Assembly: GCA_013214205.1 (NCBI GenBank)
Contig: JABSPQ010000168.1
Location: 1-43,149, forward strand
Source: Flavobacteriales bacterium
Lineage (GTDB): Bacteria > Bacteroidota > Bacteroidia > DT-38
Direction: 5' to 3'
DNA length: 43,149 nucleotides
In this document: piece after piece, positions 270 to 43,085 of the stretch
Layout: every line of letters starts with the position of its first letter
How positions within the stretch are numbered: the first letter of the stretch is position 1
Translations under genes and position numbers: made by a program
The notes under the pieces: model-generated
Database searches by the model: none
What the model saw: only the letters and a program-made list of their open reading frames with translations
Told to the model about the DNA's origin: nothing

Positions 270-342
270 CGATGCGTAACATGAGTTATTAACAATGATC
301 AAACATTTAATCGTCTCGTTATCAGGTGGCATAAATACTTAT

Positions 343-373
343 TTGTTAATTAAAACAAAATAGTGTTCCTTTG
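343..373 (+). promoter_or_regulatory. candidate Bacteroidota promoter for the aromatic operon leader
   Basis: TTG at 343-345 (part of TTTG 342-345) is followed after 20 bases by TTCCTTTG at 366-373. This matches the Bacteroidota -33 TTG and -7 TAnnTTTG elements except for one base in the -7 box, and the spacing is in the usual 17-23 range. Transcription would begin near 380, about 25 bases before the leader peptide start at 404. The assignment is an inference from consensus and position. Confidence 0.45.
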
Positions 374-403: not shown

Positions 404-463
404 ATGAACAACGGTAATACATTTTATTTCTTTTATTATTGCGGAACTCAAAACGGGATCTGA
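404..463 (+). CDS. attenuator leader peptide rich in Phe and Tyr codons
   Basis: This 19-codon frame (ATG 404-406, TGA 461-463) encodes MNNGNTFYFFYYCGTQNGI. Codons 7 to 12 (422-439) are TTT TAT TTC TTT TAT TAT: three Phe and three Tyr codons in a row, just upstream of genes that make Phe and Tyr. The peptide itself probably has no function after synthesis. Its role would be to make the ribosome pause when charged tRNA-Phe or tRNA-Tyr is scarce. It lies between a candidate promoter and an intrinsic terminator that abuts pheA, as expected for classical ribosome-mediated attenuation. As is common in Bacteroidota, no Shine-Dalgarno sequence precedes it. Translation is inferred, not shown. A chance F/Y run is possible in AT-rich DNA, but the position and paired RNA structures argue against it. 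Confidence 0.8.
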   Translation: MNNGNTFYFFYYCGTQNGI

Positions 464-501
464 AGGAGAAGTATTACCATATAATCATCCATTAGTTCCC
501 G
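454..501 (+). promoter_or_regulatory. predicted antiterminator of the aromatic operon leader
   Basis: CGGGATCTGA (454-463), spanning the last codons and stop of the leader peptide gene, can pair with TTAGTTCCCG (492-501). This gives five pairs (454-458 with 497-501), one T-T mismatch, then four pairs including one G-T. It uses bases 497-501, the 5' arm of the terminator, so the two structures exclude each other. A ribosome paused on the Phe/Tyr codons (422-439) should leave 454-463 free, allowing the antiterminator. A ribosome that reaches the stop codon should cover it and let the terminator form. The pairing was found by eye and not scored thermodynamically. Confidence 0.65.
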
Positions 502-522
502 GCTTAGCTGGGATTTTTTTTT
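497..522 (+). terminator. intrinsic terminator (attenuator) directly before pheA
   Basis: TCCCGGC (497-503) pairs with GCTGGGA (507-513) across a TTA loop, seven pairs with one G-T, followed by nine T (514-522). The pheA GTG start lies only eight bases after the T run. A terminator this close upstream of the first gene, and downstream of the leader's promoter, must act conditionally if the operon is to be expressed. Confidence 0.85.
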
Positions 523-530
523 ATATATAA

Positions 531-1376
531 GTGAACGAAAAAAAGAAAATAGCAATACAAGGCGTAAAGGCAGCCTTTCACGATATAGTGGCTCACAAGT
601 ATTTTGGTGACGACATTATCATCAACGAATGTGAAACATTTAAAGCCCTTTGCGAATCGTTAAAGAACGGTGATTCGGATGCTGCTGTAATGGCCATCGA
701 GAATACATTGGCTGGTACATTATTGCCAAATTACAGCCTGTTACAAGAGTACGGTTTTCACGTTGTAGGAGAGTTGAATCTTCACATTCAAATGTGTTTA
801 ATGGCACTGCCTGGTGTAAAGATTGAAGATTTAAAATATGTTCAATCGCACCCAATCGCTTTACAGCAATGCGCTAAATTTATTAATGCCCATCCTAGCC
901 TAAAGGCACTTACGGTAGATGATACTGCTGGGTCGGCCAAGGCTGTACAGGAAGGCAAGCTAACAGATACGGCAGCAATTGCAAGTGAACAAGCGGCTGA
1001 GGCATATGGTTTGAACTTGCTTCAGAAAAATGTTGAAACGAATAAGTTAAACTTTACAAGGTTTTTGATGCTCAGTAGAGGGGCAGATTTAAAGCCAGTG
1101 GTAGGAGCCAATAAATCTTCTTTGTATTTCGAGTTGAGACACAAAGTAGGAAGCTTGGCAAAGGTGCTTACCATTTTTAACGACAACGGAATCAACCTAA
1201 ATAAAATTCAATCTATTCCGATTATAGGCAAGCCATTTGAGTTTACTTTTATAGTGGACTTACTATGGGAGGACGAGAATAATTACAGATATACAGTAGA
1301 TAAATTGCAAGACATAGTTATCAATTTACACATTTTAGGCGAGTACATACACGCTGATTTTCAATTGGATGAGTAA
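531..1376 (+). CDS. pheA: prephenate dehydratase with C-terminal ACT domain
   Basis: This enzyme converts prephenate to phenylpyruvate, the committed step to phenylalanine, in the cytoplasm. The 281 residues are the usual length for a monofunctional enzyme. Family marks are AIEN near 55-58, QSHPIALQQC (105-114), DTAGSA (131-136), AAIASEQAAEAYG (148-160) and the catalytic TRF (176-178). An ACT domain covers about 197-275. Its ligand motifs differ from the E. coli Phe-binding forms: GSLA (207-210) in place of GALV, and QSIP (227-230) in place of ESRP, so feedback by Phe may be altered. The GTG start at 531 follows the attenuator directly. The stop overlaps the ATG of the next gene (TAATG at 1374-1378), which indicates translational coupling. 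First structural gene of the operon. Confidence 0.95.
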   Translation: MNEKKKIAIQGVKAAFHDIVAHKYFGDDIIINECETFKALCESLKNGDSDAAVMAIENTLAGTLLPNYSLLQEYGFHVVGELNLHIQMCLMALPGVKIEDLKYVQSHPIALQQCAKFINAHPSLKALTVDDTAGSAKAVQEGKLTDTAAIASEQAAEAYGLNLLQKNVETNKLNFTRFLMLSRGADLKPVVGANKSSLYFELRHKVGSLAKVLTIFNDNGINLNKIQSIPIIGKPFEFTFIVDLLWEDENNYRYTVDKLQDIVINLHILGEYIHADFQLDE

Positions 1377-2560
1377 TGATAATTAATCAAGCAAATAGGC
1401 TCAACGAAGTCAAGGAATACTATTTCTCTACCAAATTGCAGGAGATTGCAAAGATGAGAGCGAGCGGATTAAATGTTTTGAATCTAGGAATTGGAAGTCC
1501 AGATTTAGCTCCTTCGGATGCAACTATTGATGCATTGATTGAAGCTGCAAAAATCCAGAGTAATCATGCTTACCAACCATACAGAGGCATCAACGAATTG
1601 CGTGAGGGTATTGCCGGTTGGTACAAATCGACTTACGGAGTTGATTTAAATTCAACAAACGAGATATTACCTTTGATTGGTTCGAAGGAAGGCATAATGC
1701 ACATTTCGATGGCTTTTTTGAATGAAGGCGATCAGGTTTTAGTTCCTAATCCGGGATATCCTACTTACTCTTCGGTTAGTAAATTGGTGGGTGCCGAAAT
1801 TGTAGAATACGAATTGAACGAGGCCAACAATTGGGCTCCTGATTTTGAGGCTTTAGAAAATTCTGATTTATCTAAGGTTAAAATTATGTGGGTTAATTAC
1901 CCAAACATGCCTACTGGTGCTGCGGCAACAGATGAGGTTTTTAGCAGACTAATTGAGTTTGGGAAAAAACACCAAATTTTAATTTGCAACGACAATCCAT
2001 ACAGTTTGGTGTTAAATACCGACGCGCCAAAAAGTATTTTATCTGTTGATGGTGCAAAGGATGTGGCAATTGAATTGAACTCTTTGAGCAAGTCGCACAA
2101 CATGGCGGGTTGGAGAATTGGGTTTGTATCTGGCGCTGCTGAATACATCAACACCATTATAAAAGTTAAATCCAACATGGATTCGGGCATGTTTTTGCCT
2201 TTACAAAAAGCAGCTGTTGAAGCATTAAAAAACAGCGATGAGTGGCACCAGCAAAGAAATGAGATTTACAAAGAGCGAAGAGAATTGGCTTGGAATATTT
2301 TAGAATCTATTGGTTGCACATTCGACAAAACCCAAGTGGGCATGTTTGTTTGGGCCAAAGTGGGCGAGGATGTTGCCAGTGTTGAGGAATTTGTAGATGA
2401 ATTTTTGCAAGAGGCAAACGTGTTTATTACACCAGGGTTTATTTTTGGATCGAAGGGAGAAGGGTACGTTAGAATTTCGCTTTGCAGCGATACGAAGGTG
2501 TTGGAAGAGGCATTAGGCAGAATTAGTAAAGTGATGGACAGTAAAAAAGCAACAGCGTGA
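1376..2560 (+). CDS. class I/II PLP aminotransferase, probably aromatic
   Basis: A 394-residue fold type I aminotransferase. The PLP-binding lysine is in NSLSKSHNMAGWRIGF; GSKEGIMH and NPGYPTYSS are also characteristic of the group. Its position between pheA and tyrA, with overlapping start and stop codons on both sides, suggests that it transaminates phenylpyruvate and hydroxyphenylpyruvate (or prephenate) to complete Phe and Tyr synthesis. Substrate specificity cannot be read from the sequence: relatives include aspartate and LL-diaminopimelate aminotransferases. The stop TGA (2558-2560) overlaps the GTG start of tyrA at 2557. Confidence 0.85.
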   Translation: MIINQANRLNEVKEYYFSTKLQEIAKMRASGLNVLNLGIGSPDLAPSDATIDALIEAAKIQSNHAYQPYRGINELREGIAGWYKSTYGVDLNSTNEILPLIGSKEGIMHISMAFLNEGDQVLVPNPGYPTYSSVSKLVGAEIVEYELNEANNWAPDFEALENSDLSKVKIMWVNYPNMPTGAAATDEVFSRLIEFGKKHQILICNDNPYSLVLNTDAPKSILSVDGAKDVAIELNSLSKSHNMAGWRIGFVSGAAEYINTIIKVKSNMDSGMFLPLQKAAVEALKNSDEWHQQRNEIYKERRELAWNILESIGCTFDKTQVGMFVWAKVGEDVASVEEFVDEFLQEANVFITPGFIFGSKGEGYVRISLCSDTKVLEEALGRISKVMDSKKATA

Positions 2561-3414
2561 AAATTGGCGTAATTGGTTTAGGTTTAATTGGAGGTTCATT
2601 GGCAATGAGTTTGAAAAAGAACGGAGTTGCCTCTAATATAATTGGTATGGACGCCAACGAAGCTAATGCTGCAAAAGCTTTAGAGCTTGGTATTATTGAT
2701 GGAATTGGTTCGTTGAACGATGTTTTAATGGACAGCGAACTAATTGTTTTGGCCATTCCGGTAGATAAAGCTAGGGTTGTTTTAGCCGAGGCGTTAGACA
2801 ATATTCCGAGCGGAACTGTTATTACAGATATGGGTTCTACCAAAGCCGGAATCTGTAAGTCGGTTGAAAATCACCCAAACAGAAGAAATTATGTTGCTTC
2901 ACATCCAATTGCTGGTACAGAGCATTCGGGGCCCGAAGCAGCTATCTCAAATCTTTTTGATGAGAAAGTAGCCATTATCTGCGATGTAGATGAAGTGGCT
3001 ATCTCCTTACTCTCGCGTGTGGAAGCGATGTATGCGTCTTTAAATATGCGCGTAGTTTACATGTCGCCAGAAGAACACGATTTGCACATGGCCTACGTTT
3101 CGCACCTGTCGCACATTAGCTCGTTCGCCCTAAGCACAACGGTTTTAGAAAAAGAAAAGGATGAAAAGACTATTTTTGACCTCGCTGGTAGCGGATTTGA
3201 GTCCACTGTAAGGCTTGCTAAAAGCTCTCCCGAAATGTGGGGACCTATTTTTAGGCAAAACTCAAAAAATGTATCTGAGGCATTAGGAACTTATATCGAA
3301 CATCTTACAAGTATCAAAGAGATGATGGATAATGGAGACGAAACGAAGATGAAAGGAATGATGAAAGATGCAAATGGCATCAAGAAAATATTAAATGGAA
3401 TAAATAACAAATAA
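2557..3414 (+). CDS. tyrA: prephenate dehydrogenase
   Basis: This enzyme oxidises and decarboxylates prephenate to 4-hydroxyphenylpyruvate on the way to tyrosine. The 285 residues begin with MKIGVIGLGLIGGSLA, a Rossmann GxGxxG nucleotide-binding motif. They continue with SHPIAGTEHSGPEAA and DLHMAYVSHLSHISSFAL, the substrate-site motifs of TyrA. No extra ACT or chorismate mutase domain is attached. The GTG start overlaps the stop of the aminotransferase, and the following gene begins four bases after this stop. Its presence in the same transcript as pheA explains why a leader that senses both Phe and Tyr would be useful. Confidence 0.93.
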   Translation: MKIGVIGLGLIGGSLAMSLKKNGVASNIIGMDANEANAAKALELGIIDGIGSLNDVLMDSELIVLAIPVDKARVVLAEALDNIPSGTVITDMGSTKAGICKSVENHPNRRNYVASHPIAGTEHSGPEAAISNLFDEKVAIICDVDEVAISLLSRVEAMYASLNMRVVYMSPEEHDLHMAYVSHLSHISSFALSTTVLEKEKDEKTIFDLAGSGFESTVRLAKSSPEMWGPIFRQNSKNVSEALGTYIEHLTSIKEMMDNGDETKMKGMMKDANGIKKILNGINNK

Positions 3415-3418
3415 TAAA

Positions 3419-4498
3419 ATGGAATTAAATATAACACCAATGCGTGAGTGGCTTCCAGATGTGAAGAAACCACTAATTATCGCGGGACCATGTAGCGCGG
3501 AACACGAAGATCAAGTAGTTAATACAGCAAAAGAAATACATGCTTTAGGAAAAGTAAGCGTTTTAAGAGCTGGTATTTGGAAACCAAGAACTCGTCCTAA
3601 TTGTTTTGAAGGAATAGGAGAAATTGGACTAGAGTGGTTGGCAACAGCTAAAAAGGAAACTGGAATGCTAACAACTACTGAGGTTGCTACACCTGAGCAT
3701 GTTGAATTGTGCTTAAAGCATGGTGTTGATATTCTTTGGATTGGTGCAAGAACTACGGTTAACCCGTTTTCTGTTCAAGCAATTGCAGATGCATTAAAAG
3801 GTGTTGACATTCCTGTTTTGGTTAAAAATCCAATTAATCCAGATTACCAATTGTGGTTAGGAGCAATGGAAAGAATCAACTTAGCAGGTATCACTAAATT
3901 AGGTGCTATCCATAGAGGGTTTTCTTCAGCTGAAAAATCTCCGTTTAGAAACATCCCAGGATGGAGCATGGCGATTGAGTTGAAAAGAAACTTCCCAAAC
4001 ATTCCTATCATCAACGATCCAAGTCATATTGCTGGTAACAGAGATTTGATTTCTTATGTTTCGCAAAAAGCATTGGATTTAGATTTAGATGGTTTAATGA
4101 TCGAAACACACATTCAACCAAGTGTTGCTTTAAGTGATGCTGCTCAACAAGTAACTCCAGAAAGATTGGGTGAAATATTAAACGAGTTGAAAGTGAGAGA
4201 AACTTCTTCTGATAACCAAGAGTTCACTGATCAGTTGGCTATCCTTAGAAAGGATATTGATGAATTAGACGAAGAGATCGTTCAAAAACTTTCTACTCGA
4301 ATGAAGATTGCTAAGAAAATTGGTGAGTTCAAAAGAGACAATGAAGTAACCATTTTGCAAATGAGTAGATGGGAAGAAATCGTTGAGAAACGTGTTTCTT
4401 TAGGAAAAGCAATGGGCTTAGATGAAAAATTCACAAAAGAATTATACCAAAGAATTCACAGTGAATCTATCAAAATGCAAGAAGAGTTGATGAAATAA
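3419..4498 (+). CDS. bifunctional DAHP synthase / chorismate mutase (AroQ type)
   Basis: The N-terminal part (about 1-250) is a DAHP synthase of the AroG/KDPG-aldolase-like class, with AGPCSAEHEDQV, LRAGIWKPRTRP, HRGFS, NDPSHIAG and MIETH. It condenses phosphoenolpyruvate with erythrose 4-phosphate, the first shikimate-pathway step. The C-terminal part (about 265-355) is an all-helical AroQ chorismate mutase starting at LAILRKDIDELDEEIVQKL, which makes prephenate for PheA and TyrA. The order DAHPS then CM is the one I know from Bacteroidota; Bacillus has the reverse. One protein thus holds the pathway entrance and the branch-point enzyme, and a shared polypeptide may allow prephenate or chorismate to inhibit the synthase. 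Last gene of the operon, before a strong terminator. Confidence 0.93.
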   Translation: MELNITPMREWLPDVKKPLIIAGPCSAEHEDQVVNTAKEIHALGKVSVLRAGIWKPRTRPNCFEGIGEIGLEWLATAKKETGMLTTTEVATPEHVELCLKHGVDILWIGARTTVNPFSVQAIADALKGVDIPVLVKNPINPDYQLWLGAMERINLAGITKLGAIHRGFSSAEKSPFRNIPGWSMAIELKRNFPNIPIINDPSHIAGNRDLISYVSQKALDLDLDGLMIETHIQPSVALSDAAQQVTPERLGEILNELKVRETSSDNQEFTDQLAILRKDIDELDEEIVQKLSTRMKIAKKIGEFKRDNEVTILQMSRWEEIVEKRVSLGKAMGLDEKFTKELYQRIHSESIKMQEELMK

Positions 4499-43013: not shown

Positions 43014-43085
43014 GGCCCCTTAGTTTAATGGATAAAATAGAAGTTTCCTAAACTTTAGCTCCAAGTTCGATTCTTGGAGGGGCCA
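43014..43085 (+). tRNA. tRNA-Arg, anticodon CCT
   Basis: A full cloverleaf can be drawn over 72 bases: acceptor GGCCCCT (43014-43020) with AGGGGCC (43078-43084), D-stem GTTT/AAAT around a loop with GG, anticodon stem GAAGT/ACTTT, loop TTCCTAA with anticodon CCT at 43047-43049, T-stem CCAAG/CTTGG with loop TTCGATT, and discriminator A. It reads AGG codons. No CCA is encoded, so it must be added after transcription. The gene begins six bases after the metG stop and is followed by a terminator. Confidence 0.95.

Follow-up and report, generated by a model that had tools for sequence, protein, structure and literature searches.

The pheA-aminotransferase-tyrA-DAHPS/CM operon of a Flavobacteriales bacterium is very probably tuned to the supply of charged tRNA-Phe and tRNA-Tyr by a classical ribosome-mediated attenuator, as judged from sequence comparison. 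The operon lies near the start of the 43,149-nucleotide stretch of DNA analysed here as a whole (contig JABSPQ010000168.1 of assembly GCA_013214205.1; hereafter, the window). The comparison establishes a short leader open reading frame (ORF) rich in Phe (F) and Tyr (Y) codons, an intrinsic terminator, an antiterminator that covaries with the terminator, a fixed spacing between the F/Y codons and the antiterminator, and a match between the residues of the leader and the product of the operon. A predicted Phe/Tyr attenuator of this kind recurs across most of the phylum Bacteroidota.

The leader region and its operon

The putative leader ORF upstream of pheA (Table 1) reads ATG AAC AAC GGT AAT ACA TTT TAT TTC TTT TAT TAT TGC GGA ACT CAA AAC GGG ATC TGA and thus holds an uninterrupted run of codons (FYFFYY) for the amino acids that the operon would produce. 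The preliminary description of this DNA had reported a 19-codon ORF at 404-463 with six consecutive Phe/Tyr codons, which proved exact on re-reading of the sequence, and it had assigned to the four aromatic genes identities that agree with their Pfam and NCBIfam matches; the next gene after them is recJ. ORFs of this type are rare by chance, since dinucleotide shuffling of the pheA upstream regions yields an ATG-started frame with six or more F/Y per ten codons in 0.7% of cases.

Between the leader ORF and the first structural gene lies an intrinsic terminator (497-522), in which the stem TCCCGGC-TTA-GCTGGGA (497-513) forms seven pairs and is followed by nine T (514-522). The T run ends eight bases before the GTG start of pheA at position 531, and all the coordinates previously given for the stem, the T run and this distance are right. 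The segment 404-530 folds better than its own shuffles (z = -2.72). Terminator-like patterns were found four times in 6 kb, the expectation being 4.0; the terminator alone therefore proves little, and the case lies in the combination of elements and in their conservation.

Table 1. Features of the leader region and the operon in the window
Feature	Position	Strand	Basis
Probable Bacteroidota-type promoter: -33 TTTG (342-345), 20-nt spacer, -7 TTCCTTTG (366-373)	342-373	+	sequence
Leader ORF MNNGNTFYFFYYCGTQNGI*, 19 codons	404-463	+	sequence
Alternative (1:2-type) hairpin, 413-420/471-478 and 427-435/461-469, control codons in 5' arm	413-478	+	minimum free energy fold
Control codons TTT TAT TTC TTT TAT TAT (F Y F F Y Y), six consecutive	422-439	+	sequence
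Putative antiterminator strand CGGGATCT, end of leader ORF into stop codon	454-461	+	pairing with AGTTCCCG; covariation across loci
Putative antiterminator partner AGTTCCCG, overlapping terminator 5' arm	494-501	+	sequence, covariation
Intrinsic terminator: stem 497-503/507-513, loop TTA, T run 514-522	497-522	+	sequence, folding, pattern search
pheA, prephenate dehydratase with ACT domain, GTG start	531-1376	+	Pfam PF00800, PF01842
Class I/II aminotransferase, presumed aromatic	1376-2560	+	Pfam PF00155; substrate inferred from context
tyrA, prephenate dehydrogenase	2557-3414	+	NCBIfam NF006307 above cut-off; PF02153, PF20463
DAHP synthase fused to chorismate mutase	3419-4498	+	PF00793, PF01817

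The consensus of the Bacteroidota-type -7 box is TAnnTTTG, from which the -7 box TTCCTTTG departs by one mismatch. A promoter at 342-373, with a transcription start site predicted from it, is probable; TAnnTTTG precedes the leader ATG by no more than 80 nt in 58% of loci versus 8.6% of shuffles. Directly upstream of the promoter region, positions 3-269 hold a transposase-like C-terminal fragment, with a weak match to PF01609 below the cut-off.

Such surroundings leave room for a different reading, in which the terminator is constitutive and ends transcription coming from upstream while the ORF is a chance T-rich frame. In favour of it are the chance rate of terminator-like patterns in the 6-kb stretch, the AT-richness of the region and the transposase-like remnant that ends at 269, while the promoter-like site between this remnant and the leader speaks against it. 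What decides the matter is the comparison with other genomes.

Searches of Rfam at the gathering threshold returned, for the whole window, a tRNA at 43014-43085 as the sole match, and relaxed E-values over positions 250-650 yielded no leader family and no T-box.

Conservation across Bacteroidota

Homologues of PheA were sought with the window protein and then with a 15-sequence profile, both in a class sample and in a set of named genomes. The evenly drawn class sample comprised 396 genomes, with a PheA match in 121 and no match in 275. After the upstream regions had been oriented by the HMM match, 192 distinct ones were kept, in which a leader was called where an ATG-started short ORF had at least six F/Y in a ten-codon window. 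Such F/Y-rich leaders are present in 75.5% of the 192 pheA upstream regions, whereas dinucleotide shuffles reach 0.68% and reverse complements 0.5%; no residue pair ranks above F+Y. These figures, together with the covariation of the antiterminator described below, argue against the constitutive terminator with a chance ORF, a reading that the comparative data already contradict and that we regard as extremely improbable.

Leader and terminator occur together, here with at least five F/Y in ten codons and an intrinsic terminator, in 139 of the 192 regions (86/113 in the class sample and 53/79 in the named set), a conservative count since several loci without a terminator call do have a hairpin, whose T run is short or interrupted. 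Across the 139 loci the control run consists of 45% F and 40% Y, and the carriers include Sphingobacterium, Pedobacter, Mucilaginibacter, Chitinophaga, Prevotella and Cyclobacteriaceae. About a quarter of the pheA upstream regions are without a leader, which we count against attenuation; pheA lies within 130 nt of the preceding gene in 13 of 45 leaderless regions versus 5 of 145 others.

The alignment of upstream regions from related genomes, proposed earlier as a check, bore out the expectation that the F/Y-rich ORF and the terminator are kept while the sequence of the peptide drifts. In particular, the leader of a genome of the same genus encodes MNNGNTFYFFYYYGTQTGI, with six synonymous and two non-synonymous codon differences. 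This genome, the nearest one, keeps the leader, the antiterminator strand and the segment after the stop codon, and both promoter boxes are largely conserved; its terminator has an identical base and T run and a different loop.

Two contigs carry labels from elsewhere. One labelled candidate division KSB1 has MLSNTHFRFFFFYFFGSEPGS and the antiterminator-terminator arrangement CCGGGGTC / GGCCCCG before pheA, which suggests either that the element extends beyond Bacteroidota or that the contig was wrongly binned. The other, labelled Legionellaceae bacterium, has a Bacteroidota-like pheA with a leader and is probably mis-binned.

The antiterminator and its covariation

An attenuator reading of this region had been put forward in the preliminary description; the reading is supported, whereas the antiterminator that its mechanism needs was missing from that account and has now been identified, with support from covariation. 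The putative antiterminator in the window (454-461/494-501) forms seven pairs with one U-U mismatch and competes with the terminator stem, so that the two structures are predicted to be mutually exclusive. In the 139 loci, pairing of the segment that follows the F/Y run averages -16.7 kcal/mol with the terminator arm of the locus itself, -11.5 with the arms of other loci and -7.9 kcal/mol upon shuffling, and 137 of the 139 leaders prefer their own arm over the mean of the others. The covariation was retested, to limit the effect of shared ancestry, on 40 representatives below 60% PheA identity; their own mean was -14.70 versus a permuted mean of -9.61 (sd 0.42), and none of 10,000 permutations reached the observed value. 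Covarying pairs are GCCGGGACT/AGTCCCGGC, CGAGGCT/AGCCTCG, AGGATTGT/ACAATCCT and AGGTGGGA/TCCCACCT.

At the window locus the pairing energy is -10.4 kcal/mol with its own arm versus -10.3 kcal/mol with swapped arms, a negligible preference, and the antiterminator proposed there thus rests on homology and position. That the window has one of the weaker antiterminators (-10.4) is a point against attenuation in our weighing.

The same pairing bears on the possibility that leader and hairpin control the translation of pheA, by coupling or by sequestration of the start site, and not termination. The window would suit such control, with its hairpin so close to the pheA start (eight bases from T run to GTG). 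On the other hand, a T run follows the hairpin, the distance from hairpin to pheA varies widely, from about 11 to 238 nt, and the covarying pairing involves the 5' arm of the terminator, all of which makes translational control most unlikely.

Position of the ribosome and folding states

From the last F/Y codon to the start of the antiterminator the median distance is 10 nt (IQR 9-12), and this spacing falls between 7 and 16 nt in 95% of loci versus 22% when the leader segment is shuffled. Measured from the stop codon, the start of the antiterminator ranges from -30 to +5. Since the distance from the F/Y codons is fixed while that from the stop codon is variable, it is the control codons that determine the geometry. 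Bacterial ribosomes shield about ten nt past the A-site codon, so the antiterminator would begin about where a ribosome stalled at the last control codon ceases to cover the RNA. The spacing in the window, 14 nt, is at the long end of the range and weighs against attenuation.

From these features we infer translation of the leader, stalling, termination and a physiological response, along the following lines. When charged tRNA-Phe or tRNA-Tyr is scarce, the ribosome translating the leader would stall on codons 422-439, leaving 454-461 free to pair with 494-501; the arms of the terminator would then be kept apart and, with the terminator blocked, RNA polymerase would continue into pheA. When both charged tRNAs are plentiful, the ribosome would reach the stop codon (461-463) and cover 454-461, upon which the terminator at 497-513 could form and transcription would end at the T run.

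A folding model of the nascent RNA is consistent with this sequence of events, as the control codons are placed such that a stalled ribosome is predicted to free the antiterminator and a ribosome at the stop codon to cover it. The modelled probability of the antiterminator is 0.95 with the ribosome on the F/Y codons and 0.01 with the ribosome at the stop codon, and in the window 0.99 versus 0.00, the at-stop values following in part from the ribosome mask used. For RNA free of ribosomes the modelled probability averages 0.79 and is about 0.69 in the window, so that the prediction for the untranslated state is not sharp, which we also set against the attenuation reading.

A ribosome held at a fixed point ahead of the antiterminator would likewise be expected of a TnaC-like arrest, in which the nascent peptide senses free Phe or Tyr and no stall for want of charged tRNA occurs. 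Arrest peptides require specific residues, whereas outside the F/Y run the leader peptides are highly variable, F and Y interchange, and the spacing tracks the F/Y codons. Moreover, a TnaC-like leader would stall the ribosome, and so raise expression, when the amino acid is abundant, as would fit a catabolic and not a biosynthetic operon. Peptide-sensing arrest is thus very unlikely, and stalling on the control codons remains our preferred reading.

The minimum free energy fold further contains an alternative hairpin of the 1:2 type (Table 1), in which the region of the F/Y codons pairs with the segment after the antiterminator at a predicted -14.0 kcal/mol in the window and -18.1 kcal/mol in the same genus. 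A general 1:2 (protector) hairpin, which would form on an untranslated leader, is weakly supported across loci, where the values are -9.4 for the own partner, -8.1 for shuffled and -7.7 for swapped partners, and 86 of 139 loci beat swapped partners; the hairpin is thus proposed for the clade of the window only.

Leaders of other amino-acid operons

F/Y-rich leaders were found upstream of 0% of the hisG, trpE, ilvD and thrA genes examined. Two of these operons have leaders of their own, His-rich upstream of hisG in 62% of a small set (13 loci) and Trp-containing upstream of trpE in 73% of another (11 loci). At pheA, hisG and trpE, the residues encoded by the predicted leaders match the product of the operon.

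In the same genome as the window, the trpE locus is preceded by the leader MKTYNKYWWQQSYLR and the terminator AAAGGCTCGCCGTTCAGGCGGGTCTTT, a Trp counterpart of the Phe/Tyr element. Its hisG locus (L218, about 1320-1440) carries a leader that contains His, read as MHQFHHAS or as a longer peptide, together with the inverted repeat CGGGGA/ATCCCCG; a strict terminator with a T run was not found for this His leader at the locus. The hisG loci of most relatives examined show His-rich leaders, e.g. HHHHH, followed by terminators. Leaders before thrA and ilvD are not general, being T/I-rich in 3 of 9 thrA loci and I/L/V-rich in 2 of 11 ilvD loci; the Ile/Leu/Val-rich or Thr/Ile-rich short ORFs that precede these genes in some lineages are possible further attenuators.

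It is reasonably probable that attenuation is an ancestral and general control of amino-acid operons in Bacteroidota, with a mixed Phe/Tyr run before pheA, through which one operon would respond to both amino acids, and parallel Trp and His leaders (in some lineages Ile/Leu/Val or Thr/Ile ones), and that it reaches the neighbouring candidate phylum KSB1.

Relation to known systems

The element offers a testable account of how the synthesis of aromatic amino acids is controlled in Bacteroidota, a phylum that includes major gut and soil bacteria. A covarying antiterminator at a fixed spacing from the control codons also provides a route to leaders of this type where Rfam has no model, and the mixed Phe/Tyr run raises the testable question of whether one attenuator may integrate two amino acids.

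The closest textbook case is pheL-pheA of E. coli and other enterobacteria, in which an F-rich leader ORF and an alternative terminator and antiterminator control pheA. All these traits, the F-rich leader, the alternative structures and the control of pheA, are predicted for the window as well. Unlike in E. coli, the operon in the window combines genes for Phe, for Tyr and for DAHPS/CM, the control run mixes Phe and Tyr codons in about equal shares, the putative antiterminator strand sits at the end of the leader ORF or immediately behind it, and there is no Rfam leader match. The trp and his leader-peptide attenuators of Proteobacteria share the working principle, and His and Trp counterparts occur before hisG and trpE in the class of the host; the proteobacterial attenuators belong to another phylum, and again the window is without a match to an Rfam leader.

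In 2010, leader-peptide systems were described as known only from Proteobacteria and Actinobacteria, in addition to a newly found His leader in Firmicutes (PMC2965389); the present data point to classical attenuation as widespread in a phylum beyond those listed there. The preliminary description had further supposed that the element was undescribed for aromatic operons of Bacteroidota, which the accessible portions of two papers contradict. Table 7 of PMC1173090 (2005), based on Merino's database, has an entry for a putative attenuator ahead of pheA>hisHb>aroAI-beta-aroQ>tyrA of Bacteroides thetaiotaomicron, a case that has operon content, phylum and a predicted attenuator before pheA in common with the window. 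That entry is a prediction only, given in the accessible part without the leader peptide or its codon content, whereas the Phe/Tyr content is read here. The second paper, PMC9723704 (2021), reports strong clues to leader-peptide attenuation of amino-acid operons in Flavobacterium psychrophilum, and a structured 5' element upstream of its pheA that is conserved within Flavobacteriaceae and has no Rfam family. Gene and phylum are those of the window, while the operons that bear leader peptides are not specified in the part of the paper available. An experimental study of a pheA attenuator in Bacteroidota was not found in the open-access literature. Collectively, attenuation as a kind of control is known, and what the comparison of sequences adds is the Phe/Tyr content of the leader, the predicted covarying antiterminator, its regular spacing from the control codons and the wide distribution of the element.
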